Assembly (NCBI GenBank): GCA_025361485.1
Contig: JANYLA010000154.1
Span: forward strand, 1-42,210
Source: Bacteroidales bacterium
GTDB taxonomy: Bacteria > Bacteroidota > Bacteroidia > Bacteroidales > Tenuifilaceae
Reading direction: 5' to 3'
DNA length: 42,210 nt
Shown here: positions 6,401-22,673 of the stretch, piece by piece
How the letters are laid out: every line of letters starts with the position of its first letter
Position numbering within the stretch: the stretch's first letter is position 1
The notes under the pieces: model-generated
The model's input: the letters and a program-made list of their open reading frames with translations, nothing else
Told to the model about the DNA's origin: nothing
Databases searched by the model: none
Position numbers and translations under genes: made by a program

Positions 6401-6695
6401 AAAACAAATCAATATTTATCCCTTTATGATTGTTATGGATAAGTATAAAGCGGTAATTGCCGGTAGGCATAATATGGATATGAGTTTTGATTATAGTATT
6501 TCTCTTTTGGAAAGCCCTCTTCCCATAAGAATTTGTGTTGATGTAAAAGGAACAATGGACAAAATGAACTATTCTTTAATTAAGTGTAACTACAGAGATC
6601 TTAACCGCCCAACATCAAAAATGGTATTGCAGAATAAGCAGCTTGAGCTGCGAAGAATTATTAGAGAATCGTTACTAAAGAATGTAAAGAAATAG
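3489..6695 (+). CDS. AsmA-family envelope protein
   Basis: A 1068-residue protein anchored by one N-terminal membrane helix (about residues 9-32). The AsmA-type opening follows: TPERLTPFVRKQIAKSI...CKLELGEVELTFFSTFPKFGLRVSDLTFINP. The remainder is a very long series of short beta strands, as in the AsmA/TamB/VPS13-like bridge proteins, with the AsmA C-terminal-like part near residues 830-1010 (FSEIAKKMRF... and KAVIAGRHNMDMSFDYSISLLESPLPI). Known family members sit in the inner membrane, span the periplasm and are tied to phospholipid or outer-membrane homeostasis. Length is at the upper end for bacterial AsmA proteins but usual in Bacteroidota. A repeated block near residues 575-680 (SNLNADVTNF..., GEVKADISDY..., IKMNSDITND...) looks like internal duplication of a bridge segment. 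It closes a short transcript ending in a strong terminator. Confidence 0.88.
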   Translation: MSIKKVFKRIGVAFAIVLFLLIIAISIATWFVFTPERLTPFVRKQIAKSITCKLELGEVELTFFSTFPKFGLRVSDLTFINPIKGAQSDTLLSTQKLIGIVDVGAWWKRDELVLTDLQLADGMINAYVDSCGHANFDIVRPDTTQTTPEATKSEMPFKLIDIRNVELNDISLSYNDKTQKMLADIKELAVKFNGKLISDTLNMNLNVNDCILSFNYDGEQYFKNASIKLKSPAKFVISRMLMEFGESQASVNDINLTFSGTVENDSKNNRINTNIIYNSEKFPIPSAIALIPPSYQSYVEGVDLKGVASSDGKITGFYCDTVMPLMDLHIVMYEGDMKYAGFPIALSNMKGDFTFYSDITHDNITFFRINQFSANTPKSSFGTRGTINHLFSDIYYDLTSTANLNIAEFAPMIPKDLKMKVNGNASGQIRTAFSMSQMEKMLIDRMIIAGSVTVSNFDLVYDTIYMKTNKSTVDFSMPNANRANKISKFLGTKISTNDLEAGTLKGYKAFLRNALINLETSNVMDTTRLPDVACSFSLDTLSASMDTMKVGLLKPSGDLMMYSAKGPQKQDRILLDYSNSKMKASMGKSMHVQMNKSNLNADVTNFMATPNIKIEYTGRNLAMQMDTNIVKMDEGEVKADISDYSTKPKIKFAYSGKSLDIKMGQSNSVKIGKIKMNSDITNDPTQKDVFLQWNAKGFLDMEQGVITTSMLTDTIKIPSIKMDFDPQTFNIKESKLAIDKSDFSLSGTLTNIQSFIKKDSLLRGNFNFVSKQTDVLKLMTLTSGIGNSDSTAQTSSTGPFMVPKGIDFTLHTNINKVLFGNEIAKDITGEIKVNDGVLVLNDVLFTTPASKIQLTAIYKTPYRNYLFAGFDYHMLDVEIESLIKMFPLVDSIMPMLRSFKGKGEFHMAAETYLDSLYKPQIPSLMGVASIKGTNLVLMDGQTFSEIAKKMRFSKKAENKVDSLSAEFSLLRKQINIYPFMIVMDKYKAVIAGRHNMDMSFDYSISLLESPLPIRICVDVKGTMDKMNYSLIKCNYRDLNRPTSKMVLQNKQLELRRIIRESLLKNVKK

Positions 6696-6975: not shown

Positions 6976-7887
6976 GTGAAATTAGAAATTCGGAATCTCT
7001 CCAAGGTATATCCAAACGGAAATAAGGCGTTAGATGATGTTAACCTAACCATTGAGAGCGGAATGTTTGGTCTGCTTGGCCCAAATGGTGCAGGAAAATC
7101 AACATTGATGAGAATTTTGGTTACCCTTTTAGAACCATCAAGCGGTTCGGTTTTTGTTGATGGTTTAGACCTTTCGAAGCATCGGGAGGACATCAGGCGC
7201 ATGCTTGGATACCTTCCCCAAGATTTCAGGTTCTTCTCAAACCTTACAACATTCGAGTTTTTGGATTATGGCGCTCGCCTATCGGGGATGAAGGATAGCA
7301 AAATCAGAAACAATGCAGTTCATCAAATGCTCGAAACCGTTGGGTTGTATGAGGCACGTGATCGCAAAGCGAATAAGCTATCGGGAGGGATGAAACGCCG
7401 GCTAGGAATTGCTCAGGCATTAATCAATGATCCTCGGATTATCATCGTTGATGAACCAACCACCGGGTTAGACCCCGAGGAGCGAATCCGATTCCGAAAT
7501 CTACTATCAACCATTAGCTCGCGCGATGTAATCATTATCCTCTCAACCCATATCGTTGCCGATATTTCGAGCACGTGCAAAAACATGGCATTACTTTCCA
7601 ACGGACAACTTGCTTACAGCGGTTCACCCGAAGAGCTAATTGATTTGGCAAAAGGTAAAATATGGCAGATGACCGTAAATAGGGATGAAATGGATAGGGT
7701 TAGTAATTTATTCCCAGTTACAACTACAATTCCGGTTGACGAAGGTTGGGAGATTGAGGTTGTTGCCAATGACCCATCGCCATTCAAAGGAATTCCTGTT
7801 GAGCCAAACCTTGAACATGCTTACGTTTACTTTATGGATAAGCAATTACGCCAATCGAATGATTTAAGTATTGACATTGAAGAATAA
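6976..7887 (+). CDS. ABC transporter ATP-binding protein
   Basis: A 303-residue nucleotide-binding subunit. Motifs in order: beta-1 LEIRNLSKVY, Walker A GPNGAGKST (about 35-43), Q-loop YLPQDF, signature LSGGMKRR, Walker B IIIVDEPTTGLD, and H-loop STHIVAD. About 80 residues follow the core, with KIWQMTV and EPNLEHAYVYFM, features of ATPases paired with ABC-2 permeases of the NosY/CcmB-like type. It starts with GTG at 6976. It is the first gene of the export locus and its stop lies six bases before the next start, so it most likely powers the 1094-residue permease. Its sequence is closely echoed by the ATPase domain fused to the second RND pump downstream (17173-21891), including the C-terminal tail, which points to duplication within the locus. 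Confidence 0.93.
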   Translation: MKLEIRNLSKVYPNGNKALDDVNLTIESGMFGLLGPNGAGKSTLMRILVTLLEPSSGSVFVDGLDLSKHREDIRRMLGYLPQDFRFFSNLTTFEFLDYGARLSGMKDSKIRNNAVHQMLETVGLYEARDRKANKLSGGMKRRLGIAQALINDPRIIIVDEPTTGLDPEERIRFRNLLSTISSRDVIIILSTHIVADISSTCKNMALLSNGQLAYSGSPEELIDLAKGKIWQMTVNRDEMDRVSNLFPVTTTIPVDEGWEIEVVANDPSPFKGIPVEPNLEHAYVYFMDKQLRQSNDLSIDIEE

Positions 7888-7893
7888 TCGTTT

Positions 7894-10800
7894 ATGCTAT
7901 CAACATTCCAGATAAAAACCATTGCGCACTTCGAGGCCAAAACGCTTTTCCGAAGCTGGTTCTTTAGGATACTTGGCATCCTGATGCTATCCATTGTTTT
8001 CTTTTTCAACCTTGTTACGGTTATAATCGGAGAGGGAGTTATTCAGCAAGCGGTTCCATCAGCAATACCTTACTCGAACCTGATGTTTTTCAATGTGGTT
8101 CAGGCAATTATTGCCGTATTCCTTGCTTCCGATTTTCTTAAGCGCGATAAAAAGCTCGATACCACCGAAGTAATCTATACCCGTTCAATGTCGAATGGCG
8201 ACTATATTATCGGGAAACTCATCGGAAACTTAATCGTTTTTACTACCCTGAATTTTGCAATACTTGGTGTTGCACTAATCTTTAATATGATATTGGGTTT
8301 TAGCACCGTTAATTGGATTGCTTATGCTTACTACTTTTTATTGGTTTCAATACCAACGTTAATATATATTATTGGGCTCTCATTTATCCTGATGAATTTG
8401 GTTAAAAATCAGGCAGTAACCTTTGCTATTCTTATCGGATATATTTTCTTAACCATGTTCTACTTAAAGGATCAGTACTACTTCCTTTTCGATTATATGG
8501 TTTACAATATCCCGATGCTTTATTCCGATTTAATCGGATTCATCGACCTAAAGCTTCTGTTTATTCATCGAGGAATGTACCTTTTGCTTGGGCTATCGTT
8601 TATATCGATAAGCGTTTTTAGATTATGGCGGTTGCCCAACAAACCCTTCTCCAATATCTATCCAATTTCATTTTCTCTCATCTTTTTAGCGGGGGGCATT
8701 TTTCTTGGATCATTGCATGTAAAAGAATCGATGAGAGGTGAAAGGCTAAGGGTAGAAATGGTTAAAGTGAACGATAAATACGCTAATCACCCTCGTTTAA
8801 CCATAACAAATCAGAATATTAAGCTTTTTCATAAAGGAAGAACCATAGATGTAGTGTGTTTGCTTAAATTAGAAAATAGAACAACAAATTCTATCGATTC
8901 AGTAATCGTTTCATTAAACCCATCATTAACAATCTCGACGGTTACGAATGAAAATGCCGAAATAAAATTTACAAGAGACGAACACCTTATTATCCTTAAA
9001 TCAAAAAAAACAATATTACCGAACGACTCGATTAATTTTCAAATATCATATAGCGGAACTGTTGATGATGAGGCTTGCTACATTGATATTGATGAAAAAA
9101 CAAGGGCAATTTCAGAAGTTTCTGATATGGTAAATATCGGGAAGATATACAGTCGAATTTCCGATGACCTAGTTCTTCTAACCCCCGAGAGCAACTGGTA
9201 TCCAACAGCTAGCGTTGGCTTCAACAAAAAGAACACCCTTTGGATGCTTCCTGAGCTCTGTAAATTCAATCTTTCTGTATCATGTAAGCAAGGAATGACA
9301 GCTATTTCGCAAGGAGCGTCAACATCATCGAATAATCTTACAAATTTTTCTACCAACAAATCATTATCAGGATTATCGTTGGTAATTGGACGGTATCAAA
9401 AAATGTCCTTTAAGAACGCTGACATTGAAGTAGGAGTATACATTAAACCTGATCATGATTTCTTCAGTAAAACATTTACGGCGCTGAAGGATACAACCCA
9501 AAGAATAATCTACAAATCTTTAGAAGATTATAGCCTTAGGCTAAAGATGCAATACCCATTCAAGCAGCTATATCTTGTTGAAGTGCCAATCCAATTCCAC
9601 TCGCATCAACGTTTCTGGTTAAACCATATGGAGATGCTGCAACCTGAACTAATATTTGTTCATGAGAAGGGTGGACAGGATGAATCGTTTAGATTTGAGA
9701 AAAACATCAAAGACAGCAAAGAATATGGAGATTCTAAAGGTCTTGGAGATAAAGAAGTCCAAGAGGAGGAGCTCAAAAGCTTTTTAACCAGCTTTACGAA
9801 GAGAGCTACAATTAATTTAAATTATCAAGATAAACAGGAAGAGGAGATAATTAACCCTTACTTCATTTTTGATGAATTCTACGCTTACAATCATCCCGTT
9901 GAATCGAAAGAATATCCTGTTTTTAACACCATTCTGGGCTCCTACTTAATAAAGCAAGTATCAAATTCAAATGACAATAGATATTCTTACGGTTTTAGCG
10001 AAGAGGAACGAGCAGTGCTTCTTTTACAGAAAAAGAGTTTAAGCCAAATCATGCTAAATCCCGATTACTATAACCTTGCTGATAATATTATTAACATGAA
10101 AGGAGATGTTCTTTTATCGTTAGTAGAGAAAAAGATAGGGAAAAGTCAACTTGATGAAATTCTCAAAGAGCTTTTTGCCAAATATAGCGGTCGGGCAATT
10201 CCATTCGAAGAGATCAATTTGCAATTTAAAACACGTACTGGTCAAGAGCTAGGTGCTCAACTCGACTCTTGGCTTCGCTCCGAAAAACTCCCCGCATTTA
10301 GAATTGGTAAAGTAGATGCTTACAGGGTTACCGATGGAGAACGTCAGCGATTCCTTACCCGCATATCGATTGGCAATGAGGGGACAATTGAAGGTATTGT
10401 TAAGATTGCAATCCGCGAAGCGGGTAAAGATGATAACAACGAGGAAAAGAAGTTTGAGTTCAAAACTTTTGATATTGGAATAAACCAAATAAAAAACATC
10501 AGCATACTTTCCGACAAACAACCATCAACATTGATTTTAAATACTAACGCTTCAATGAATATACCCGTTAAACAGGAGATATCAATTTTAAAGGTTGATG
10601 GTGACGGTAGTATGAAAGCCAATACGGAGGAACGTATTACTCCGTTAACTCAATGGGATGAGCAGGGAGAGATTGTGGTTGACAACGAGGATTCGCTATT
10701 TAATGTTATAAATATTTCAAAACAAGGATTGCTGATAAATCTTGCTAATAAAATAGTTAAACCAGGAGATGAGTACCAAGGTTATATGTCGTGGTTTGTT

Positions 10801-11178
10801 TCTGGAAAATGGGGAAAATATGTTAACAACGAATTTTACGGTAAATACCTTCACTCGGCAGAGGCTATACGATCAGGGAATGGCGACGCAAAAGCAATTT
10901 GGGAAATACCCATTAAAGAAAAGGGGCAATATGATATTTACACCTATATTCCAAGAGACAAAGACAAGGAGGATGAGCAGCATTTGGGAGAGTACCAGTA
11001 CACCATTAGCCATGATGATGGGGAAAGTAGGGTTACCATAAACTGTAAGGATGTTGAAGGAGGTTGGGTATTACTTGGCGTTTATTACTGTTCGCATGGG
11101 AATGCAAAGGTTGAACTGAATAACCTATCGAAATCGAGAGTAGTAATTGCTGATGCTGTAAAGGCAGTGAAGCTGTGA
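7894..11178 (+). CDS. ABC-2 permease with peptidase-like and golvesin-like C-terminal parts
   Basis: A 1094-residue fusion. Residues 1-275 carry about seven membrane helices of an ABC-2 permease. Residues about 280-900 are periplasmic and resemble the M1-aminopeptidase-like part found in large Bacteroidota permeases (VPIQFHSHQRFW... MLQPELIFVHEKG, and a later ERAVLLLQKKS...YSGRAIPFEEI). There is no HExxH anywhere, so this part should not be an active zinc peptidase. It contains a charged insertion near residues 605-630 (KNIKDSKEYGDSKGLGDKEV). Residues about 960-1094 match the golvesin/xanthan-lyase C-terminal-like beta domain (FYGKYLHSAEAI, AIWEIPI, GQYDIYTYIP, GGWVLLGVYY, VVIADAVKAVKL). It lies directly behind the ATPase gene, its likely partner. 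The substrate is unknown. Confidence 0.85.
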   Translation: MLSTFQIKTIAHFEAKTLFRSWFFRILGILMLSIVFFFNLVTVIIGEGVIQQAVPSAIPYSNLMFFNVVQAIIAVFLASDFLKRDKKLDTTEVIYTRSMSNGDYIIGKLIGNLIVFTTLNFAILGVALIFNMILGFSTVNWIAYAYYFLLVSIPTLIYIIGLSFILMNLVKNQAVTFAILIGYIFLTMFYLKDQYYFLFDYMVYNIPMLYSDLIGFIDLKLLFIHRGMYLLLGLSFISISVFRLWRLPNKPFSNIYPISFSLIFLAGGIFLGSLHVKESMRGERLRVEMVKVNDKYANHPRLTITNQNIKLFHKGRTIDVVCLLKLENRTTNSIDSVIVSLNPSLTISTVTNENAEIKFTRDEHLIILKSKKTILPNDSINFQISYSGTVDDEACYIDIDEKTRAISEVSDMVNIGKIYSRISDDLVLLTPESNWYPTASVGFNKKNTLWMLPELCKFNLSVSCKQGMTAISQGASTSSNNLTNFSTNKSLSGLSLVIGRYQKMSFKNADIEVGVYIKPDHDFFSKTFTALKDTTQRIIYKSLEDYSLRLKMQYPFKQLYLVEVPIQFHSHQRFWLNHMEMLQPELIFVHEKGGQDESFRFEKNIKDSKEYGDSKGLGDKEVQEEELKSFLTSFTKRATINLNYQDKQEEEIINPYFIFDEFYAYNHPVESKEYPVFNTILGSYLIKQVSNSNDNRYSYGFSEEERAVLLLQKKSLSQIMLNPDYYNLADNIINMKGDVLLSLVEKKIGKSQLDEILKELFAKYSGRAIPFEEINLQFKTRTGQELGAQLDSWLRSEKLPAFRIGKVDAYRVTDGERQRFLTRISIGNEGTIEGIVKIAIREAGKDDNNEEKKFEFKTFDIGINQIKNISILSDKQPSTLILNTNASMNIPVKQEISILKVDGDGSMKANTEERITPLTQWDEQGEIVVDNEDSLFNVINISKQGLLINLANKIVKPGDEYQGYMSWFVSGKWGKYVNNEFYGKYLHSAEAIRSGNGDAKAIWEIPIKEKGQYDIYTYIPRDKDKEDEQHLGEYQYTISHDDGESRVTINCKDVEGGWVLLGVYYCSHGNAKVELNNLSKSRVVIADAVKAVKL

Positions 11179-11247: not shown

Positions 11248-12768
11248 ATGTATAAAAGAATTGTATTACCATTATTTTGCATTTGTCTTTCCACATGGTA
11301 TTGCAACCATGCCAATGGACAATCGCTTATAACCCTCGAAAAGGCAATGGAGATTGCAGGACAGAATAGTCCTGAGATTCAGCAATCGTTGCTTAACCTT
11401 GAACGATATAAAGAATCGCTTAATGCAACAAAAGCTTCACTTAAATCTAAATTTCAATTCGATGTAAACCCATTTTATTACTCAAATAATAGAAAATACG
11501 ATGAGAGCAACTCCAAATGGTATACTCTTGAAACCACTAGGTCGGGTGGCACATTCTCTATAATCCAACCGTTTCTTCCAACCGATGCCACGTTCTCGTT
11601 AAAGAATGATTTTGGGTGGTCGAAAAATTACAATGAGGGAGTAATAAAGGATCCATTAGATCCAACAAAATCGATGCTTGTCGGATCGTCTACCGAAAGA
11701 TTTAGCAATAGTCTTTCCATAGGAATAACTCAACCACTCTTCACATACAATAAACGAAAGTTGGAGCTCAAAGGCCTTGAGTTGGATTACGAAAATGCTA
11801 ACCTGAACTATACAATGCAAATGCTGAACCTTGAAAAAGGGGTTAGCCAATATTTTTATCAGGTATATATGGCTCAAATGAGTTTGAGTATTGCTAAAGA
11901 TGAGCTGGAGAAAACACAGCAAAGCTATGAGATTATATCGAATAAAGTTAATGCTGGACTCACAGCGAAAGAACAATTTTATCAGGCTGAATTAAATTTG
12001 ATGAATGCAAAATCTGCTCTTCAAAATCGTGAAGTTGAACTCGAAAATATAAAAGATGAATTTAAGAACTACATCGGGATAGCTATAAAGGATGAGGTTA
12101 TGACCCTTGCTGATATTACGGTAACACCTACCAATGTTGACCTAGCGATTGCCGTTCAACATGCGCTCGAATCGCGAATGGAACTTCGTCAAAAACAAAT
12201 CGATATCGAAAATTCACAGTTTGATCTAATTAAAACCAAATCTCTGAACGAGTTCAAAGGGGATCTAAACCTTTCTGTTGGATTATTTGGTGAAAATCAA
12301 AAATTTCCTAACACCTACGAAAATCCAACAAAAAGCCCTAATGTTTCATTCACTTTCACAATTCCAATCTTCGATTGGGGCGAAAATAAATCTCGCATAA
12401 AAGCTCAGCAGGCAGTTATGAAATCATCTGTTTTAAACCTTGAGAATCAAAAAAACCAGATTGAACTTAATATCAGGAAGGTATTCCGGAATATTCAGAA
12501 CTTGCTTAACCAGATTGATATTGCAAAGCAAAACGAAAAAAACGCTCAGTTAACCTACGAGATTAACCTCGAGCGTTACCGTAATGGCGACCTTACAAGT
12601 ATGGATTTGAAACTCTACCAAAACCAGTTATCGGAGAAGAAAACATCGTTGCTACAAGCTCAAATCAACTATAAACTCGAAATCCTAAACTTAAAAATAC
12701 AATCGTTATACGATTTTGAAAAAAATCAACCCCTTGTTCCGTCAGCTCTATTCATTAATCAGAAATAA
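11248..12768 (+). CDS. TolC-family outer-membrane efflux channel
   Basis: A 506-residue outer-membrane factor. It has a signal peptide (cleavage after ANGQ) and the TolC-type start LITLEKAMEIAGQNSPEIQQS. Two related helical halves with beta inserts follow (ISIG-TQPLF near residue 160 and NLSVGLFG near 350). A PIFDWGENKSRIKAQQA motif near residue 375 and long heptad helices (LNIRKVFRNIQNLLNQIDIAKQNEKNAQLTYEINLERYRNGDLTSMDL) complete it. Such trimers form the exit duct for tripartite pumps. It sits 69 bases behind the permease gene and 11 bases before the adaptor gene, so channel, adaptor and RND pumps are almost certainly one machine. Confidence 0.92.
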   Translation: MYKRIVLPLFCICLSTWYCNHANGQSLITLEKAMEIAGQNSPEIQQSLLNLERYKESLNATKASLKSKFQFDVNPFYYSNNRKYDESNSKWYTLETTRSGGTFSIIQPFLPTDATFSLKNDFGWSKNYNEGVIKDPLDPTKSMLVGSSTERFSNSLSIGITQPLFTYNKRKLELKGLELDYENANLNYTMQMLNLEKGVSQYFYQVYMAQMSLSIAKDELEKTQQSYEIISNKVNAGLTAKEQFYQAELNLMNAKSALQNREVELENIKDEFKNYIGIAIKDEVMTLADITVTPTNVDLAIAVQHALESRMELRQKQIDIENSQFDLIKTKSLNEFKGDLNLSVGLFGENQKFPNTYENPTKSPNVSFTFTIPIFDWGENKSRIKAQQAVMKSSVLNLENQKNQIELNIRKVFRNIQNLLNQIDIAKQNEKNAQLTYEINLERYRNGDLTSMDLKLYQNQLSEKKTSLLQAQINYKLEILNLKIQSLYDFEKNQPLVPSALFINQK

Positions 12769-12779
12769 CTTTAGCATAT

Positions 12780-13835
12780 ATGAAAACAATTAATATTATA
12801 TCCGTATTAGCATCAGCAATTATCGCTGTATCGTGCAATAATTCTCAGGAAAGCAAAACAAATGAACCTGAGATTCCAGTATCGGTAAACAATGTTACCA
12901 TGTCGGCCATTGAAAAGGTAATCAACACCAATGGAACAGTTTACCCAATGCAGAAAGCCGAATTCAAATCGGAGATTTCGGGTATCTATAAGCTGCTGAC
13001 AAATTCAAAATCAGGTAAAAAATATAGACTTGGCGATATCGTTAAATCAGAGGAGGCGATTATTACGCTTGAAGATCCGGAGTATGAAAACTCAATTGCC
13101 ATCGACTCTAAGAAGTTAAACCTTGATATTGCTCAACAGGAGTACACCAAGCAGCAATCGCTCTTTGAAAAAGGAGGTGTAACTCAGCGAGAAATGCGTA
13201 ACTCAGAGGTTAGCTACACCAATGCCAAGTACGATTACGAGAACTCTAAGTTGAAACTTTCAAAGATGAAAGTTGGGTCACCATTTGGAGGAGTAATTGT
13301 AGATTTACCATACAACACCCAAAATGTAAGAATTGCAGCAGGGCAACCATTATTCACCGTTATGGATTATGGACAAATGTATATGGAGGTTAGCCTACCT
13401 GAGAAATATGTAAACGATCTTCAATCGGGGATGAAAGTTCGACTAACCAGCTATAATCTTCAGAAGGATACAATCTGGGGCACTATCACCGACCTCTCCC
13501 CTGCTATCAGCTCCGAAACAAGGACTTTTAAAGGTAGAATAGATATTAATAACCCTAACCTTCGCCTCAAGCCAGGAATGTTTGTGAATGCCGATATCAT
13601 CATCGCAAAAAAAGAGAATACAATAGTTGTGTCGAAAGAGTTAGTACTTCGAAATAATGATATTCAGTACGTTTTCATTATTGATAAGAGCATTGCAAGG
13701 CTGCGGGAAGTAACTACAGGAATAGAAAACGGGAATAATGTTGAAATCCTAACCGGTTTGAGCAAAGATGACAGGCTCGTAGTAAAAGGTTTTGAAACCT
13801 TGAAAGATAATAGCAAGGTTAAGGTAATACGATAA
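12780..13835 (+). CDS. RND efflux periplasmic adaptor (membrane-fusion) lipoprotein
   Basis: A 351-residue adaptor of the HlyD/AcrA type. The signal ends in a lipobox (IAVSC), so it is lipid-anchored to the inner membrane. The lipoyl-like half (INTNGTVYPMQKAEFKSEISG...GDIVKSEEAIITLED) precedes a coiled-coil hairpin (about residues 115-160: EYTKQQSLFEKGGVTQREMRNSEVSYTNAKYDYENSK). The second half (SPFGGVIVDLP...AAGQPLFTVMD) and beta-barrel and proximal domains follow (RTFKGRIDINNPNLRLKPGMFVNADI). It is the only adaptor for two RND pumps here, which suggests the two pumps work as a heteromer or share it. A repeat-like 190-base element separates it from the first RND gene. Confidence 0.93.
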   Translation: MKTINIISVLASAIIAVSCNNSQESKTNEPEIPVSVNNVTMSAIEKVINTNGTVYPMQKAEFKSEISGIYKLLTNSKSGKKYRLGDIVKSEEAIITLEDPEYENSIAIDSKKLNLDIAQQEYTKQQSLFEKGGVTQREMRNSEVSYTNAKYDYENSKLKLSKMKVGSPFGGVIVDLPYNTQNVRIAAGQPLFTVMDYGQMYMEVSLPEKYVNDLQSGMKVRLTSYNLQKDTIWGTITDLSPAISSETRTFKGRIDINNPNLRLKPGMFVNADIIIAKKENTIVVSKELVLRNNDIQYVFIIDKSIARLREVTTGIENGNNVEILTGLSKDDRLVVKGFETLKDNSKVKVIR

Positions 13836-14075: not shown

Positions 14076-17000
14076 ATGAAAAAAATTGCACAATTCGCTG
14101 TCGACTATCCTGTATCAATCCTAATGCTTATTCTTGGGGTTGGGGTGCTCGGATGGTTCTCGTACGATAAGCTCAGCGTCGATCTATTCCCCGATTTAAA
14201 TAATCCCCGCCTATTCATTGAGGTTCGCTCAGGCGAGCGTCCCCCTGAGGAGATGGAGAAGCAATACGTTGAGCAGCTCGAAGGGATGGCCATACGCCAA
14301 TCGAATGTTGCCGAGGTTTCATCCGTAATTCGCACAGGTTCGGCACAGGTAACCGTTGAGTATAGCTGGAATGCAGATATGGATGAGGCTTTTCTTGACC
14401 TTCAAAAATCAGTAAACTCATTCGGGCAGCAGAATAAAACTGATGAAATAAAAATAACCCAACACGATCCGAATAGCTCACCGGTAATGATTATCGGCTT
14501 TAGTCAGCCTGGCAAGAACGACCTAAATCATCTACGAAAAATTGCCGATCACTATATCCGCAATGAACTAGTGAGGCTTGAGGGAGTTGCCGAGGTTGAA
14601 ATAACAGGACAAGAGGAAAGCGAATTGAGAATAAGCACCGACCCCAATAGGCTAGATGCTTATGGTTTATCACTAAGCGAGCTGAGCCAACGTATCATGT
14701 CGCAGAATCAACAAATCTCTGGTGGAACTATCACCGAATCGGGCATGCAGTATATCGTAAAAGGTGTTGGGTTACTAAAAAGTATCGATGATTTCAATGG
14801 CCTAATTGTTGGCTATAAATCAACTGTTACTGGTAATCCTTCGGGATTAAAAGCGCCAATATTTCTTCGCGAAGTTGCGGATGTTAGCATAACCAATCAG
14901 ATTCCAAAAAACATTGTCCGGTTAAACGGTGAGCGATGCTTAGGACTTGCCATTTACAAAGAAACCCGCTTCAATACAGTTAAGGCTGTTGAGCAGACTA
15001 ATAAAGCCCTTGAAACCATCCGTAAAGCTTTGCCCGACTATAAAATTGAAGTTATTACAAACCAAGGAACGTTTATTAGTCAAGCTGTTGGTGAAGTTAA
15101 GGATAGCGCATGGATGGGAATGATTCTGGCAATTTTTGTTCTATTCCTTTTCTTACGTAAAATTGGAACCACCCTGATTGTTGGGTTTATAATTCCAATT
15201 TCGATAATAGCCACCTTTACCTTGATGTACTTTACTGGGCTCAATCTCAATATTATGACCCTTGGAGGACTTGCCCTTGGAGTGGGTATGCTCCTCGATA
15301 ACGCCATTGTAATTATTGAAAATACATTCCGTCATCACGAAGAAGGAGAATCGGTTCGCGATGCAGCAATCAATGGCACAGCAGAGGTTGGGATGGCAAT
15401 TGTTGCATCAACATTTGCATCAATCGTTGTTTTTTTACCGATTGTTTACATGCACGGTGCATCGGGCGAGCTGTTCCGCGATCAGGCATTAACGGTATCT
15501 TACTCTCAGATTACCTCGTTGTTTGCTGCCATCCTCTTCCTTCCGATGTTCTATAACTTCTTCTTCAAGAAGAAACCTGCTCCGGTCAGAACAACTTCGT
15601 TAAGATTTGAGTGGTATGGTAAATTCCTTGATAAAGTATTGAATAGAAACAAACTAATCGTTTTCCTTACCATTGCAGTTATTGGTGGCTCATTGATGCT
15701 AATCCCCTATATCGGAACCGAATTTATGCCGCAGGCCAATAGCCGAGAATTCACATTCGATATCAAGATGGACGAGGGAACAACTCTTCAGCGAACATCG
15801 GCAGTAGTTGAGAATATCGAATTTATTATAAAAGATGGGCTTAAGGAGAATCTTGAACTCGTTTACAGCCAAATTGGACCATCGACAGGGCTATCGGATA
15901 ATTCAAGTTCGGTTTATACTGGCGATAATACTGCAAATATCCGGGTTATTCTTAAAAAGGATTCCAAGTTCACTCCCGATGAGGTGATGAGCCTGATCAG
16001 CAATGCCACCAATGGTGTTAAAGGGCTTGAGGTTCGTTTCAATAAGGATGAGTCAACCCTTCGACAAATCCTTGGCACGAACGAAGCCCCTGTAGTTGTT
16101 GAGATTAAAGGTCAAGATATTGAACTCCTATCTGAAATTGCCGATAGCGTGAAACATGATATGCTTGGTTTACCCAGCCTATACAATATTCGTTCATCGA
16201 TTGAAAGTGGAGCTCCGGAGGTTGAAGTTATTATTGACCGTGTAAAAGCAGGTATGTATAATATTTCGATGCAAACCGTGGTAGATCAATTAAAAAATCA
16301 ACTCGATGGACTTGGTGCTGGGCAGCTAGAACAGAGCGGTGAGCTTCGTCCTATCAATTTAAGAATCCCTGAAAAAGGTTTATCGCAGCTCGACGATATT
16401 ACCATTGCTAGCGGGAATCAACTATTTAGACTAAGCGAAATTTCTACAATCAAAATTTCTAGATCTCCACAGGAGATTCATCATCGAAATCAAGTTCGCA
16501 TGGTAAAAATTTACGCCATGAAATCGGGCAATACTCCACTGGATAAAATTGCACAGCAGATTTCGGCGAAAACAGCATCAATCAGCTTACCAACCGATTA
16601 TAAAATTCAGATTACCGGTGAGGAGGAAAAACGTCAAGAAGCGATGAAGAACCTTTCGTTGGCTTTTATATTATCTATTGTATTGATATACATGGTAATG
16701 GCGTCGCAGTTTGAGTCACTAATACATCCATTTACAATTCTACTAACCATTCCTCTAGCGCTTGTTGGATCCATTCTAGCATTCTTTTTATTGGGCAGCT
16801 CATTGAATATCATCTCAATAATTGGAATAATCATGCTTGGAGGGATTGCGGTTAACAATTCTATTATTCTTGTGGATAGGATAAATCAGCTTAAGGATGA
16901 AGGCTTGGACAGGCGAAGTGCTATTATAAATGCCGGGAGACAACGTATTCGCCCAATATTGATGACTACTTTAACTGCAATTCTAGGTTTAGTACCTATG

Positions 17001-17162
17001 TTAATTGGGTTTGGAGAGGGTGCTAGCTTACGACAACCAATGGCGATAGCCGTTATAAGCGGTTTATTCACCTCTACTCTGCTTACACTTGTAGTAATTC
17101 CTTGCTTCTACTACACGTTTGACCTGATAGGTGCACGTTTCACAAAGAAAAAATCTGAATAA
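14076..17162 (+). CDS. RND-family efflux pump, inner-membrane subunit (HAE-1 type)
   Basis: A 1028-residue pump with the standard RND layout: N-terminal helix (VSILMLILGVGVLGWFSY), a large periplasmic porter loop, helices 2-6, a second porter loop and helices 8-12. Hallmarks are DLFPDLNNPRLFIEV, GGLALGVGMLLDNAIVIIEN in helix 4, and GGIAVNNSIILVDRIN in helix 10. The helix-4 acidic pair of AcrB (D407/D408) reads D408-N409 here, and the helix-10 lysine (K940 in AcrB) is replaced by N927. The start ATG at 14076 gives the expected MKKIAQFAVDYP beginning. It lies 10 bases before the RND-ABC fusion gene and shares its single adaptor and channel. Substrate cannot be read from sequence; such pumps move drugs, lipids or siderophores. 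Confidence 0.93.
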   Translation: MKKIAQFAVDYPVSILMLILGVGVLGWFSYDKLSVDLFPDLNNPRLFIEVRSGERPPEEMEKQYVEQLEGMAIRQSNVAEVSSVIRTGSAQVTVEYSWNADMDEAFLDLQKSVNSFGQQNKTDEIKITQHDPNSSPVMIIGFSQPGKNDLNHLRKIADHYIRNELVRLEGVAEVEITGQEESELRISTDPNRLDAYGLSLSELSQRIMSQNQQISGGTITESGMQYIVKGVGLLKSIDDFNGLIVGYKSTVTGNPSGLKAPIFLREVADVSITNQIPKNIVRLNGERCLGLAIYKETRFNTVKAVEQTNKALETIRKALPDYKIEVITNQGTFISQAVGEVKDSAWMGMILAIFVLFLFLRKIGTTLIVGFIIPISIIATFTLMYFTGLNLNIMTLGGLALGVGMLLDNAIVIIENTFRHHEEGESVRDAAINGTAEVGMAIVASTFASIVVFLPIVYMHGASGELFRDQALTVSYSQITSLFAAILFLPMFYNFFFKKKPAPVRTTSLRFEWYGKFLDKVLNRNKLIVFLTIAVIGGSLMLIPYIGTEFMPQANSREFTFDIKMDEGTTLQRTSAVVENIEFIIKDGLKENLELVYSQIGPSTGLSDNSSSVYTGDNTANIRVILKKDSKFTPDEVMSLISNATNGVKGLEVRFNKDESTLRQILGTNEAPVVVEIKGQDIELLSEIADSVKHDMLGLPSLYNIRSSIESGAPEVEVIIDRVKAGMYNISMQTVVDQLKNQLDGLGAGQLEQSGELRPINLRIPEKGLSQLDDITIASGNQLFRLSEISTIKISRSPQEIHHRNQVRMVKIYAMKSGNTPLDKIAQQISAKTASISLPTDYKIQITGEEEKRQEAMKNLSLAFILSIVLIYMVMASQFESLIHPFTILLTIPLALVGSILAFFLLGSSLNIISIIGIIMLGGIAVNNSIILVDRINQLKDEGLDRRSAIINAGRQRIRPILMTTLTAILGLVPMLIGFGEGASLRQPMAIAVISGLFTSTLLTLVVIPCFYYTFDLIGARFTKKKSE

Positions 17163-17172
17163 TCCAATCGGT

Positions 17173-20100
17173 ATGGAATTTATAATCAAACGTAAGGTAT
17201 TAATCAGCATGCTATTTATTGGCATAACCCTACTCGGTTATGTTTCCTATAAAAAGCTTGCCGTTGAGATGCTTCCCAATGCCGAACTTCCATTTTTGAT
17301 TGTTCAGGTTTCTTCGATTACAGAGGTTGATCCTGAATATATTGAGCAAAAAGCGATTATACCTCTCGAAGGAGCGATTGGAACTCTTGAAAACATTGAG
17401 CGAATAGAGTCAAATATCTCGCCAAATTATGGACTTATTTTCGTTTCATTTCAAAAGCAAACCAATCTAAAGTACTCGTACCTTAAGCTTCAACAAAAGA
17501 TTGATCAGGCAAGATCGCAGCTACCTCAAGGCATTATTCCTCAGATAATCCGATTCGACCTCAAGCAGCTTTCGGGCGATTTCATGACGCTTCAGGTTAG
17601 CGGCGAGGGAGGAGTAGAAAGGCTTCGTAATTTGGTTGATAAGAAAATTAAGTCCGAACTTGAGAATGTACAAGGGGTTGCCACGGCGAGTATCTTTGGA
17701 GGAAGAGAAAAAACTATTGAGGTGATAATCGACCCCGATGCTTGTAAAGCATATGGAATCACCACGGCCGAGGTTAGATCTTCTTTATCGAACAGCGAAA
17801 AACAAAAAACCTTTGTTGGGAAAGTTATTGATGGGAGCAACCGCCTCTTCGTTCATATTAGCGCTGAGTATAAAGATGTGAATGATATTGGGCAAATAGT
17901 TGTTGGGAAAGGTCCTGTTTTCCTAAAGGATGTTGCAAAAATTTACTTTGGTTTTAAAAAGGAAACCTCCTTTAGTCGTATCAACGGGAAGGATGCTGTT
18001 ACCATTATGCTAATGAATGATAATCAGGTAAATTTAATTGACCTATCGCATCGCATACTAAAGGTTATCGACAATCTCAACGATAAATATAAAGATCAGG
18101 ATGTTGCCATAGTAATTCAGAGCAACAAGGCGAAGGATCTTGAGGTTAATATGGATGATATTATCAACCTTGCCATCACGGGTGGATTGTTAGCAATTTA
18201 TGTGCTTTGGTTATTCCTTCGCAATATCAGAATAGTATCGCTGATCGGTCTCTCAATCCCCATATCGATTTATGCTGCCTTTAACCTTTTCTACGCATTC
18301 AACATCTCAATAAACACGTTATCGTTAATAGGATTAGTGCTTGCAGTTGGAATGCTGGTGGATAGCAGTGTAGTTGTGCTCGAGAATATTTTCAGGCATA
18401 GAAGCAATCCTAATATCTCTATAGAAAGTGCCGTCTTAAATGGTACAAGTGAGGTTTGGCGTTCAATTTTTGCATCAACCTTAACAACCATAGTCGTTTT
18501 TGTTCCTTTTCTTTTCAGCGATAATTTTGCTGTAAAACTGCTGGGAAATCAGATAGGCATATCAATTATCTCGGCTCTTTCCATCTCATTATTCGTAGCG
18601 TTGATATTAATACCTTCGGTTACCCATACCTTTTTATCGAAAGAGAAGAACATTCCAATGGTTAATAAGCTTGACCTAAGAAATAGGATGATTCAGATTT
18701 ACATGGCTCTGTTAAAAACCACGCTTCGCAAGCCAATTCAAACCATAATAACTGGTATTGTCCTTTTCTTCGTTTGCATTCTCCTGAGCCTAACAATCAG
18801 CTTAATTGGGCAAGAGGAAGCTGCTACCACTCAGGTAAGCGTTTATGTAAACATGCAGGCTGGATCCTCCATTGAAACCACCAATAAAACGGTTAAACTT
18901 ATTGAAGATTACCTCAAAGATTGGCCTGAAATTAAGCTGCTAACTAGTCGAATTCAAACCGATAATGCCGTTATTACTATTGAATTAAAGGAGGATTTCG
19001 AAAAATTACAAGGTAAAAATCTTGACGCTTTAAAGAATGATATCCGCCAAAAGACAACCGATTTACCCAATGCAATCGTTGATTTTGAAGCGAGCGGCTC
19101 AAATTCAGGTGGAGGAAGAAGCGATGGTGGCGGCGGTGAATCAGCAGCATTTTCAGGTATGCTTGGTATTGGCGATAATTCGGAATCGATAATCCTTAAA
19201 GGGCAAGACTTTCAGCAAATGCGAAAAGTTGCTGAGGATTTGAAGTATCGGCTCAAGGATAAAACGAGCTGGATTAATATGAACATCCAATCGGAGCGAC
19301 CCGAGGTTCACCTTATGTTCAATCAGCTATTAATGAATGAGCTCAACATCCCGTTGACCGAAATAAACTCTGCCATGAATAACTTCTCTGGCGAGATATC
19401 AACGGGAGTGCGCTTTAAGCAGAAAAACGAGGATTACGATATTATCATCCGCGAAAAGGAGCTTGAGCAAAGCAAGCCAAAAGAAAGAAATATTGATGAC
19501 TTAAAAGTGCTTCAGGTTCGGGATGCAAATGGTGGAAATCACGAACTACAAAATATTTCTAGGGTGAACTACTCGTCGGGCACCTCACAGCTAAATCGTG
19601 TAAACCAAGAAAAACAAATCACCATCACCTTTGCTTACCCCGAAAGAGCTACTCGAACCAAGGAAGCCCTGGAATTTTACCGAACAGAGGTTGATATGAT
19701 TGTTGCAGGATACGCATTCCCATCGGGAATTGTAGCTGAGGTTAAACACGATAAGATGGATCTTGGCGAATTCTATTTCCTAATCGGAACTGCACTTTTG
19801 TTAATTTTTATGATACTTGCTTCAGTATTCGAGTCATTGTTAACCCCATTAGCATTGATGTTTACAATCCCTCTTGCGGCAATTGGTTCAATGCTCGCCC
19901 TAATATTAACAGGGAATAGCATGTTCACGGTTAACACCCTTACGGGATTTTTAATTCTTATTGGGGTTGTAGTTAATAACGGTATCATACTGATTGACTA
20001 CACAAATATCTTACGAAACAGGGGATTTAGGAAAAATCGTGCAATCATGATTGCAGGAATCTCCCGTGTTCGCCCCATTCTAATCACATCCTTAACCACA

Positions 20101-21891
20101 ATTATTGCCCTACTCCCACTTGCCATTGGTAAAAAGGAATATGCAGTAGTAATTGGTGCGCCATTTGCCATTACAGTAATGGGTGGGTTAACCTTTAGCA
20201 CCTTACTAACATTGGTATTTATACCAACCTGCTACTCTGGGCTTGAGAATGGACGAAACTGGATTAAGAGCCAAAAACTATGGATTAGGATTACAATGAT
20301 TACCTCGTTAATTGTAGGATTTGTATTAATATATACTAATATTGAGAGCGTTGTCTGGAGGATGGTCGATGTAACCGTTATGCTCATTGCAATTCCAGCC
20401 ATCACCTATTTTCTTTTAAATAGCACCAGAAGAGCTCAAACGAAGCTTATCCCCGATGAGGAATCCATTACGATTAAAATTGGAAATCTTGTTAAGGTAT
20501 ATGAACGAGAAGGGCGTTTCTCGCGCGAATGGAATTCAGGACAAAGAATCACAAGTAGATATGACAAAAAACCTTCCTATCACGATTGGAAGGATTTGAT
20601 AAACTACAGCTGGCAGCTGCCGCTGCTCGGTTTCTTAATCTATTTTACCTATTTCCGCCTCGATAGCGGTTGGTGGACATTTATTCTTATCCATTTCACT
20701 GGACTTTCACTTCTTTATACCTTAAAACCATTTAAGCATAGGCTTGAGAATGCTAAACCAAAACGAAAATGGAAGCAGAAGTTCTACCCAAAACTTCCTC
20801 GGATACTCTTATGGGCATTTCCTATTGTTAACATTGCCATACTCGCATTGCGATGGAAAGCAATTGCATACATCGTAATTACTGGTATACTCTGGTTTAT
20901 TGCCCTAACGATTTTCTTGACTGCAAAAAAACTGTACGAGCAGAATATCAATATTGATAGAATTGAAGGTCGATTTAGCGGTTTTCGCAGAGCCTATTAT
21001 AGATTGATAAAGCAAATACCATTGCTCGGTAAACGTCGTCAACCATTTAAAGCGCTATCAGGTGTATCGCTTGAAATTGGTACTGGAATGTTCGGATTAC
21101 TTGGCCCGAATGGAGCAGGGAAAACAACGCTGATGCGTATTATCTGCGGAGTTCTTGACCAGAGTTACGGTAAAATTTTTATCAACGGAATCGATACGTT
21201 GGAGAAGCGAGAGGAGCTGCAAGGATTAATCGGTTACTTGCCTCAGGAATTTGGCACCTACGAGAATTTATCCGCTTGGGAATATCTCGACTATCAAGCT
21301 ATACTTAAGGGTATAGCTAACTCAGACCTAAGGCACGAAAGGCTCAACTACGTTCTGAATGCGGTGCATATGTTTGAAAAGAAGGATCACAAGATTGGAT
21401 CTTTCTCCGGTGGTATGAAACAGCGTATTGGAATAGCTCAAATACTACTACATCTACCCAGAATTCTTGTTGTCGATGAGCCAACAGCGGGACTCGATCC
21501 CCGTGAACGCATCCGATTCCGGAATTTACTGGTTGATTTAAGCCGCAATAGGGTTGTAATATTCTCAACTCACGTAATAGAGGATATCTCCTCTTCGTGT
21601 AATCAGGTGGCGGTAATTAACAAGGGAAAACTGAAATTTTTAGGCCCACCGCAGCAGATGTCAACCCTTGCCGAAGGGCATGTATGGCAATTCAGCTTGC
21701 CAACCGAAGAGTTTGAGAACTTTAGCCAAAAACAGCTAATTGTTCATCATCGGTTGGATGGTGATGTTATTCGGGTTCGCTGCGTTTCATCCGAAAAGCC
21801 ATCGCCCAATGCCGTTTTAGTAAAACCTGTTTTAGAGGATGCCTACTTATGTTTATTAAAAGGAATTGTTGAAACAAACACAAACACTTAA
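17173..21891 (+). CDS. RND pump fused to an ABC ATPase domain
   Basis: A 1572-residue chimera, numbered from the ATG at 17173, which gives MEFIIKRKVLIS, a normal RND beginning; an in-frame ATG at 17131 would overlap the previous gene. Residues 1-1035 are a complete RND subunit (D397 in helix 4, N935-N936 where AcrB has the helix-10 lysine; glycine/serine-rich insert near 640-665). Two extra helices follow (about 1040-1085). An ABC beta-1 strand ITIKIGNLVKVY lies at 1099-1110. About 180 residues with four predicted membrane helices come next, and then the rest of an ABC domain: FKALSGVSLEIGTG (1292 on), Walker A GPNGAGKTT at 1311, signature FSGGMKQR, Walker B with D1435-E1436, H-loop STHVIED. 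All ATPase motifs look intact. The domain is closely related to the free ATPase at 6976-7887. The reading frame is continuous, so this is not an assembly join. Confidence 0.9.
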   Translation: MEFIIKRKVLISMLFIGITLLGYVSYKKLAVEMLPNAELPFLIVQVSSITEVDPEYIEQKAIIPLEGAIGTLENIERIESNISPNYGLIFVSFQKQTNLKYSYLKLQQKIDQARSQLPQGIIPQIIRFDLKQLSGDFMTLQVSGEGGVERLRNLVDKKIKSELENVQGVATASIFGGREKTIEVIIDPDACKAYGITTAEVRSSLSNSEKQKTFVGKVIDGSNRLFVHISAEYKDVNDIGQIVVGKGPVFLKDVAKIYFGFKKETSFSRINGKDAVTIMLMNDNQVNLIDLSHRILKVIDNLNDKYKDQDVAIVIQSNKAKDLEVNMDDIINLAITGGLLAIYVLWLFLRNIRIVSLIGLSIPISIYAAFNLFYAFNISINTLSLIGLVLAVGMLVDSSVVVLENIFRHRSNPNISIESAVLNGTSEVWRSIFASTLTTIVVFVPFLFSDNFAVKLLGNQIGISIISALSISLFVALILIPSVTHTFLSKEKNIPMVNKLDLRNRMIQIYMALLKTTLRKPIQTIITGIVLFFVCILLSLTISLIGQEEAATTQVSVYVNMQAGSSIETTNKTVKLIEDYLKDWPEIKLLTSRIQTDNAVITIELKEDFEKLQGKNLDALKNDIRQKTTDLPNAIVDFEASGSNSGGGRSDGGGGESAAFSGMLGIGDNSESIILKGQDFQQMRKVAEDLKYRLKDKTSWINMNIQSERPEVHLMFNQLLMNELNIPLTEINSAMNNFSGEISTGVRFKQKNEDYDIIIREKELEQSKPKERNIDDLKVLQVRDANGGNHELQNISRVNYSSGTSQLNRVNQEKQITITFAYPERATRTKEALEFYRTEVDMIVAGYAFPSGIVAEVKHDKMDLGEFYFLIGTALLLIFMILASVFESLLTPLALMFTIPLAAIGSMLALILTGNSMFTVNTLTGFLILIGVVVNNGIILIDYTNILRNRGFRKNRAIMIAGISRVRPILITSLTTIIALLPLAIGKKEYAVVIGAPFAITVMGGLTFSTLLTLVFIPTCYSGLENGRNWIKSQKLWIRITMITSLIVGFVLIYTNIESVVWRMVDVTVMLIAIPAITYFLLNSTRRAQTKLIPDEESITIKIGNLVKVYEREGRFSREWNSGQRITSRYDKKPSYHDWKDLINYSWQLPLLGFLIYFTYFRLDSGWWTFILIHFTGLSLLYTLKPFKHRLENAKPKRKWKQKFYPKLPRILLWAFPIVNIAILALRWKAIAYIVITGILWFIALTIFLTAKKLYEQNINIDRIEGRFSGFRRAYYRLIKQIPLLGKRRQPFKALSGVSLEIGTGMFGLLGPNGAGKTTLMRIICGVLDQSYGKIFINGIDTLEKREELQGLIGYLPQEFGTYENLSAWEYLDYQAILKGIANSDLRHERLNYVLNAVHMFEKKDHKIGSFSGGMKQRIGIAQILLHLPRILVVDEPTAGLDPRERIRFRNLLVDLSRNRVVIFSTHVIEDISSSCNQVAVINKGKLKFLGPPQQMSTLAEGHVWQFSLPTEEFENFSQKQLIVHHRLDGDVIRVRCVSSEKPSPNAVLVKPVLEDAYLCLLKGIVETNTNT

Positions 21892-21974: not shown

Positions 21975-22673
21975 ATGAATAAAGTATTACTTCTTTGGAA
22001 GATGACCCGGTATAACCTTCAGATTGTTTTCTCGGGAAAGTTTATTTGGTTTATGATTGCTTCACTTGCATTTTTTCTGTTCACATGCACCATGATCGCT
22101 TTCAACAATAAAAACATTCAGTATAGTGACATTTACACATCGCTTGTATTTCCAGGGATGCTGCTTATGTTTTACCCAACCGTTTTTGGTATTCAGCACG
22201 ATATTGACTCACGAACCATTGAACTACTTTTTGGAATTCCCGATTATCGATTCAAAGTCTGGTTATTCAGAATCCTAATCATCTTTGTTTTTGTTTTTCT
22301 TCTACTTATTGTCTTTGGTTGGATGGCTTGGTTTCTAATAGAGCCTATTCCTGTAGTTTTATTTGCCTTTCAGCTGATGTTTCCTCTTCTTTTCTTGGGA
22401 AGTATGGCGTTTTGGGTTTCAACAATAATTCGAAACGGGAATGCAACGGCAGTGGTTATGGTTATTCTAGGGATTATTATCATGATTTTTACTAATCTGT
22501 TAAGGAATTCTTATTGGAATATCATGCTAAATCCTTATCAGGTTCCATCTGATTTAAATCCAGAAATTTGGGCAAAAATTGTTTTCAAAAACAGAGTTTT
22601 CCTTTTTGCTGGCAGTATCGTTTTTTTATTAGCAGGGATGCTTAAACTTCAAAAGAGGGAAAAGTTCATATAA
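21975..22673 (+). CDS. ABC-2 type permease subunit
   Basis: A 232-residue membrane protein with six predicted helices: IWFMIASLAFFLFTCTMIAF, a helix around IYTSLVFPGMLLMFY, IFVFVFLLLIVFGWMAWFLI, VVLFAFQLMFPLLFLGSMAF, ATAVVMVILGIIIMIFTNLL and VFLFAGSIVFLLAGML. The sequence before helix 3 (IQHDIDSRTIELLFGIPDYRFKVWLFRI) is the re-entrant/coupling region typical of NosY/CcmB-like ABC-2 permeases. It has no ATPase gene of its own; the nearest ATPase domain is the one fused to the RND pump just upstream. This makes it the natural transmembrane partner of that domain. It ends the export locus and is convergent with the DUF1456 gene, 31 bases away. Confidence 0.85.
   Translation: MNKVLLLWKMTRYNLQIVFSGKFIWFMIASLAFFLFTCTMIAFNNKNIQYSDIYTSLVFPGMLLMFYPTVFGIQHDIDSRTIELLFGIPDYRFKVWLFRILIIFVFVFLLLIVFGWMAWFLIEPIPVVLFAFQLMFPLLFLGSMAFWVSTIIRNGNATAVVMVILGIIIMIFTNLLRNSYWNIMLNPYQVPSDLNPEIWAKIVFKNRVFLFAGSIVFLLAGMLKLQKREKFI

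Follow-up and report, generated by a model that had tools for sequence, protein, structure and literature searches.

How can a single protein combine a full-length RND subunit with an ABC ATPase, and what kind of transporter would such a protein serve? RND and ABC transporters generally count as distinct classes, each with its own energy source. The window (the whole stretch of 42,210 nucleotides that was analysed) contains one reading frame that encodes both, and within this frame the ATPase itself is interrupted by a predicted membrane segment. The component families are known. Neither their combination nor the split ATPase appears to have been described before. No description of an RND–ABC fusion was found in the open-licence literature, most subscription papers being outside that scope, and within this scope the claim of the original prediction that no described protein has both holds. 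A seven-gene export system that unites an RND subunit and half of an ABC transporter in one protein is present in many Bacteroidota, which hints at a single machine able to draw on both protons and ATP.

RND and ABC domains in one reading frame

The fusion, RND2-ABC, is encoded on the forward strand by an open reading frame that extends from a GTG codon at 17131 to position 21891 (1586 residues). Translation from the ATG codon at 17173 yields a protein of 1572 residues (17173–21891) whose start residue matches the start of its relatives, and all residue positions of the fusion are counted from this codon. The N-terminal RND2 domain (residues 1–1022; 17173–20238) is full-length, covering positions 3–1018 of the 1021 positions of the Pfam ACR_tran model at 552.8 bits. 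Two extra membrane helices lie C-terminal of the twelve-helix RND domain (residues 1023–1098; 20239–20466), with hydropathy peaks at residues 1036–1054 and 1064–1082 and with helices at positions 14–34 and 38–67 of the structural model. The strand ITIKIGNLVKVY (residues 1099–1110; 20467–20502) comes after these helices and ends in the A-loop tyrosine, Tyr1110, with NLVKVY occupying residues 1105–1110. Alignment, model and position in the ATPase fold identify this segment as the predicted β1 strand of an ABC ATPase.

A membrane insert (residues 1111–1290; 20503–21042), delimited by model helices and hydropathy, separates this strand from the remaining ATPase (residues 1291–1572; 21043–21888), which matches the Pfam ABC_tran model at 92.9 bits. 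C-terminal to the insert, the sequence FKALSGVSLEI precedes the Walker A motif GPNGAGK (21103–21123, from residue 1311). The signature FSGGMKQR (21403–21426, from residue 1411), the Walker B motif ILVVDEP (residues 1431–1437, including D1435 and E1436; 21463–21483) and the H-loop STH (residues 1465–1467; 21565–21573) follow. The A-loop tyrosine is about 200 residues from Walker A in the fusion and 23 residues from it in the free ATPase of the same locus (6976–7887), and the insert is therefore about 180 residues long. The original prediction had placed an RND subunit, β1, the insert and the ABC motifs in a single frame, and all of its motif positions are correct. It had also described the two parts as joined by about four residues in the free ATPase, and the two strands of that protein do follow each other directly.

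Conservation of the fusion in Bacteroidota

Is the fusion an isolated accident of one genome? A misassembly, or a stop codon lost by chance between neighbouring genes, could produce such a frame. A scan of 84,980 species genomes of GTDB with one peptide pattern, NLVK[IV]Y, returned 215 related loci, the best 80 of which were kept. Because they were selected through this linker pattern, these 80 loci are biased toward close relatives, and some of their genomes also belong to other samples used (e.g. L034, L035, L036, L046 and L107). The RND part, the linker and the ATPase are found in one frame in 79 of the best 80 of the 215 loci, and the sole exception (L087) is cut by a contig end. The same architecture is thus found across Bacteroidota. 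Complete fusion frames from this set of 80 measure 1519–1592 residues in 71 of 72 cases. At one locus, L051, the RND part of the fusion is interrupted.

These loci originate from different projects and include cultured strains, with the fusion being present in cultured Marinifilum, Labilibaculum, Ancylomarina, Mangrovibacterium, Sunxiuqinia, Bacteroides and Parabacteroides. Such recurrence refutes the artefact reading, which we regard as practically untenable. The possibility raised by the original prediction, that related genomes would carry the ATPase as a separate gene and expose an isolated fusion, was not borne out either: a search with the linker profile and the small permease found no separate-gene version of the ATPase in 295 genomes of the order.

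The linker is present in 9 of 60 relatives, the genome of the window counted, and the fusion occurs in 6 of the 395 genomes of an even phylum sample. In the order, 40 of 295 genomes carry the linker, after one false match was removed from 41. That match, in G585, lies in a frame of 391 residues with no match to RND, linker or ATPase, and the frame presumably encodes an MFS transporter. The linker belongs to frames of 1515–1640 residues in 32 of the 40 genomes and to shorter frames in the other 8, including G048 and G037, in which the frame is cut by the contig start.

Unfused counterparts were sought in 198 genomes by scoring four candidates per genome. No unfused RND protein scored there exceeds 32% identity, compared with 44–49% for the three other fused ones of that sample, and thus no intermediate or unfused close relative was seen in this set. 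Viral contigs gave five pattern matches, none of which is a relative. Among the matches listed from 5000 plasmid records, none covers 80% of the linker and ATPase.

Organization of the operon

The fusion belongs to an operon of seven genes, all on the forward strand. The first gene encodes the free ABC ATPase (6976–7887; ABC_tran, 117.9 bits), which has no insert. It is followed by a large permease (7894–11178), which matches Golvesin_C at 70.3 bits and ABC2_membrane_2 at 17.1 bits, below the cut-off of 27.2. A TolC-type outer membrane channel (11248–12768; OEP, 165 bits), a periplasmic adaptor or membrane fusion protein (12780–13835; RND_mfp, 188.7 bits, above the cut-off of 94.9) and the unfused RND subunit, RND1 (14076–17162; ACR_tran, 748.1 bits), come next. 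RND2-ABC and a small permease of 232 residues (21975–22673), predicted by AlphaFold2 and structural alignment to be an ABC-2 (type V) membrane subunit, complete the usual order, which is shared with few exceptions by relatives whose contigs are long enough.

The components of the operon co-occur closely. In the best 80 of the 215 loci, where RND1 has 65 complete orthologs, the two RND genes are kept together with few exceptions. The free ATPase gene is located directly upstream of the large permease gene in 27 of 27 loci from 26 genomes. Of the tested fusion genomes, 26 of 26 in one set and 27 of 28 in another contain a large permease, one genome being in both sets and G735 the only one without a detected copy. 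It was also found in 37 of the 40 fusion genomes of the order sample, the three without a detected copy being G037 (61% complete), G695 (96%) and G715 (86%). The linker and the small permease show identical distributions: both are present in the same 40 of 295 genomes of the order and in the same 6 of 395 genomes of the phylum sample. These counts indicate that the two ATPases and the two ABC-type membrane subunits go together. Five further genomes (G040, G573, G617, G622 and G709) contain the large permease but no linker match. Their contigs end inside the operon before the linker could appear, and they thus neither support nor contradict the fusion.

The gene arrangement varies at a few loci. 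At L092 and L098, the fusion and the small permease lie apart from RND1, and both RND1 with the adaptor and the large permease are found elsewhere in these genomes. No small permease was detected by the script at L100, and at L065 an unrelated open reading frame comes next after the fusion before the contig stretch ends. An extra open reading frame of 412 residues lies between the adaptor and RND1 in L022 (L022:8866-10104) and also in L107. In the genome of L105 (Bacteroides faecichinchillae), the large permease is in two pieces with in-frame stops (L139 and L140), and the operon otherwise looks intact. G613 and G723 each contain several large-permease homologs, and related ABC systems without the fusion may therefore exist there. 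Upstream of the operon in the window, a frame of 1068 residues (3489–6695) matches DUF748 weakly (32.9 bits, cut-off 50), a family that we take to be AsmA-like. The genome of the window has another RND gene (L006, C156:5153-8290) with seven stops in frame, which is probably a pseudogene or the product of sequencing errors.

Predicted structure of the split ATPase

Does the strand before the insert belong to the ATPase fold? An AlphaFold2 model of fusion residues 1023–1572 was built as a single chain from 69 relatives (mean pLDDT 81.8, pTM 0.65). The model contains a strand at positions 79–88, which correspond to fusion residues 1101–1110, and the next strand at residues 1292–1302. It aligns with the structure 1vpl with a Z score of 26.4 (1.8 Å over 234 residues) and with 4yer with a Z score of 28.0. 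The placement of β1 was judged from the first and last aligned residues of these structural alignments: the aligned region begins at model residue 71–78, compared with chain residue 0–8 in stand-alone ATPases, so the strand before the insert would occupy the place of β1. The predicted structure thereby puts residues 1101–1110 in the ATPase core, as had been anticipated, and the opposite outcome, a strand that does not pair with the core, was not found. These model-based results support an ABC ATPase that is split by a membrane insert at its β1/β2 hairpin. The hairpin is interrupted by about 180 residues in the fusion, whereas none of the 27 free ATPases from the operon has such an interruption.

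The insert is predicted to contain four helices, at model positions 126–140, 144–171, 177–205 and 209–234. Among the 69 relatives, two hydropathy peaks before the A-loop and four after it are found in 51, two and five in 11, two and three in 6, and one and five in 1. Hydropathy finds only three peaks in the insert of the window itself. The claim that the insert has four membrane helices is therefore upheld by the model and by the family, and not by the window's own sequence.

The length of the insert is not fixed. The fusion at L209 (L209:1349-5947, genome G516) has a much shorter insert with a single hydrophobic peak after the A-loop, and the fusion at L210 (L210:5072-9943, genome G658) has a longer one with a low-complexity stretch rich in Gly, Ser and Asp ahead of its membrane helices. 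The former offers a naturally occurring check on what portion of the insert is required.

The catalytic motifs of both ATPases are well preserved. The A-loop, Walker A, signature, Walker B glutamate, D-loop and H-loop are intact in 69 of 69 fused ATPases, and the Q-loop pattern was matched in 67 of them. Walker A, SGGM and the D-loop are intact in 27 of 27 free ATPases. In 71 relatives, the ATPase shows the highest mean identity to the window (71.4%), compared with 51.1% for the RND part and 38.3% for the insert. The ATPase profile scores highest against ABCA chains.

Proton relay residues of the RND part

Has the ATPase taken over the role of the proton in this RND subunit? Relay positions were assigned to AcrB numbering by motif. 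AcrB requires D407, D408, K940 and R971 (PMC8277102). All 72 of 72 fusions retain the TM4 aspartate at the D407 position and the TM11 residues at the R971 and T978 positions (Arg and Thr), as do nearly all RND1 proteins. The second TM4 aspartate (D408 position) is replaced in the fusions by Asn (68 of 72) or Ser (4 of 72), and the TM10 lysine (K940 position) is replaced by Asn in 72 of 72. The same relay set (Asp, Asn or Ser, Asn, Arg and Thr) is shared by 22 of 27 unfused RND relatives, L151 being left out of 28 rows on account of a wrong frame, and the remaining 5 have Asp, Asp and Lys. Thus, the replacement is a mark of this RND branch and says nothing about ATP. The idea that the ATPase replaces proton drive is not supported, given that the relay residues of the fusion equal those of most unfused relatives. 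Gating or docking of the RND pump, two other roles offered by the original prediction, may still apply.

Permeases and proposed pairing of the ATPases

Which membrane subunits would serve the two ATPases? The small permease has no match in Pfam or NCBIfam, and a sequence search against solved structures returned matches at chance level only. Its AlphaFold2 model (pLDDT 86.1, pTM 0.83) begins with an amphipathic helix and contains six long helices, with a short one between the second and third, and this predicted arrangement corresponds to the elbow helix, six membrane helices and coupling helix of the ABC-2/type V fold. VIA-align matched the model to ABC-2/type V transporters in 50 of 50 among the matches listed (Z 14.0–16.4 over about 210–229 residues), which include NosDFY, ABCG, ABCA, PmtCD and others. 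Foldseek ranked the same families first, with a best E-value of 0.01. By its predicted fold, the small permease seems to be an ABC-2 (type V) membrane subunit.

The original prediction had offered two transmembrane partners for the fused ATPase, the insert and the nearby small permease. The small permease fits this role through its predicted fold and its occurrence in the same 40 of 295 genomes as the linker. A role for the insert itself as the permease found no support; the small permease suits that role, and the insert of L209 is much shorter.

The large permease consists of an ABC-2-like N-terminal membrane part, a long extracytoplasmic part and a Golvesin_C domain at its end. A sequence comparison of the extracytoplasmic part with solved structures gave one match, with an E-value of 0.93. 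The HExxH motif is absent from 26 of the 27 large permeases checked (one row partial), and L138 has HETKH at position 886. Neither permease matches MacB or FtsX in Pfam at an E-value of 0.01. Together, the large and small permeases would supply two membrane subunits for the two ATPases.

The two ATPases of the operon group as sisters when compared with other ATPases of the same genome (98/89), and this grouping is lost once four outside ATPases are added. A paired duplication of the two ATPases is accordingly not claimed. Judged from its genes, the operon seems to specify a complete ABC exporter with two ATPases alongside a tripartite pump with two RND subunits.

A proposed composite export machine and its alternatives

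We propose that the operon encodes one composite export machine in which an ABC exporter is docked by the fusion to an RND/TolC conduit and hands over its cargo directly, a reading that we consider evenly poised between right and wrong. The free and fused ATPases, presumably as a pair, would form a two-part ABC-2 (type V) exporter with the large and small permeases, and the fused ATPase would be tethered to RND2 via the six extra membrane helices. RND1 and RND2, possibly in mixed trimers, would constitute a tripartite pump together with the adaptor and TolC. The ATP-driven exporter would move cargo across the inner membrane, or up from it, to a position beside the RND porter, if export is indeed its direction, and the RND porter would push the cargo through the adaptor and TolC at the expense of protons. 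The fusion would dock both transporters so that cargo could pass directly between them. Given an ABC-2 exporter, a two-RND pump and a covalent tether, the simplest use would be a relay with an ATP-driven step followed by a proton-driven step. ABC or other pumps that load the periplasm for tripartite pumps have been described (PMC4338810). The composite reading is weakened by the four fusion genomes in which no large permease was detected (G037, G695, G715 and G735), by the score of the large permease below the ABC2_membrane_2 cut-off, by the Foldseek E-value of 0.01 for the small permease, and by the loss of the sister grouping of the two ATPases once outside ATPases are added. More tentatively, and with rather more doubt than belief, we suggest a dual-energy trans-envelope pump with one ABC exporter per RND trimer, in which ATP and protons drive successive steps for the same cargo. 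An example composition would be two RND1, one RND2-ABC, one free ATPase, one large permease and one small permease.

Could the tether serve docking without coupling? Docking alone would leave the same gene pattern as the composite machine. Two pumps for related cargo might be tethered for assembly and work independently, a view that accommodates the shared operon and the tether, that no evidence of cargo hand-over contradicts, and that suits the separate location of the genes in the genomes of L092 and L098. Nevertheless, the fusion has stayed with its entire set of partners across a broad range of Bacteroidota, and the 198 genomes (four candidates scored in each) yielded no unfused close relative, which makes independent work of the two pumps rather unlikely. 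It is unlikely, too, that the ATPase gates, assembles or drives the RND trimer itself through the insert, with the ABC permeases in a secondary role. The relay residues shared with 22 of 27 unfused relatives give no hint that proton drive was lost or gained, the strict pairing with the small ABC-2-like permease points to ordinary ABC partners, and one family member, L209, has a much shorter insert. These observations weigh against two points that favour such a role, namely that membrane helices join the ATPase to the RND subunit on both sides of β1 and that conservation within the protein is highest in the ATPase (71.4%, compared with 51.1% for the RND part).

The operon might also encode two ABC transporters, a homodimeric one built from the fused ATPase and the small permease and a second one built from the free ATPase and the large permease. 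Both ATPases have intact motifs, and the fusion and the small permease stay together outside the operon at L092 and L098. However, the large permease and the free ATPase accompany them in almost every case, and the large permease is found even in the L092 and L098 genomes. We consider this division into two transporters improbable.

Comparison with known transport systems

The composite export machine proposed here shares parts with several known systems. AcrAB-TolC and MdtABC, the latter with two RND genes, likewise combine ACR_tran proteins, an RND_mfp adaptor and a TolC-type channel, and two RND genes are adjacent here as well. MdtBC is named as a heterotrimer in PMC8277102. In contrast to these pumps, one RND subunit here bears an ABC ATPase and six extra helices, and the operon adds an ABC exporter. 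The bit scores against the named RND subfamilies of NCBIfam (e.g. NF033617) are far below the curated cut-offs, the best being 472.7 against a cut-off of 1250.

The small permease shares its predicted fold with NosDFY, PmtCD, ABCA and ABCG. Unlike in these ABC-2/type V exporters, a membrane insert splits the ATPase here, which moreover belongs to an RND protein. MacAB-TolC, an ABC transporter that works with an adaptor and TolC (PMC5673888), resembles the operon in bringing these three components together. MacB lacks an RND partner and has its ATPase at the N-terminal end of the permease to which it belongs (PMC8277102), whereas RND and ABC proteins are both present here. SecDF, a proton-driven member of the RND superfamily, works with the ATP-driven SecYEG/SecA (PMC8277102). 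SecDF and SecYEG/SecA are separate proteins that handle other cargo without TolC, and the comparison concerns possible working only.

A Hymenobacter plasmid locus (L204) encodes an ATPase, a permease and an M1-type aminopeptidase. Its ATPase is about 44–45% identical to both ATPases of the operon, and it has a permease and a long extracytoplasmic part nearby, as is the case here. In contrast to the operon, L204 contains no RND gene and no fusion, and its M1 protein has the zinc motif HEVAH, the HExxH motif being missing in 26 of 27 large permeases here.

Implications

If the dual-energy reading is true, RND2-ABC would be the first described protein to unite a complete RND pump with an ABC ATPase, and its ATPase would be the first of the ABC family known to be divided by a membrane insert. 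The conserved RND–ABC protein would be a natural system for asking whether primary and secondary transport can couple in series across two membranes. The split ATPase in turn would allow one to ask how the folding and function of a P-loop ATPase accommodate a membrane segment in its first hairpin. Members of Bacteroides and Parabacteroides carry the fusion, as do marine and sediment bacteria, so that its cargo could be relevant to gut commensals.
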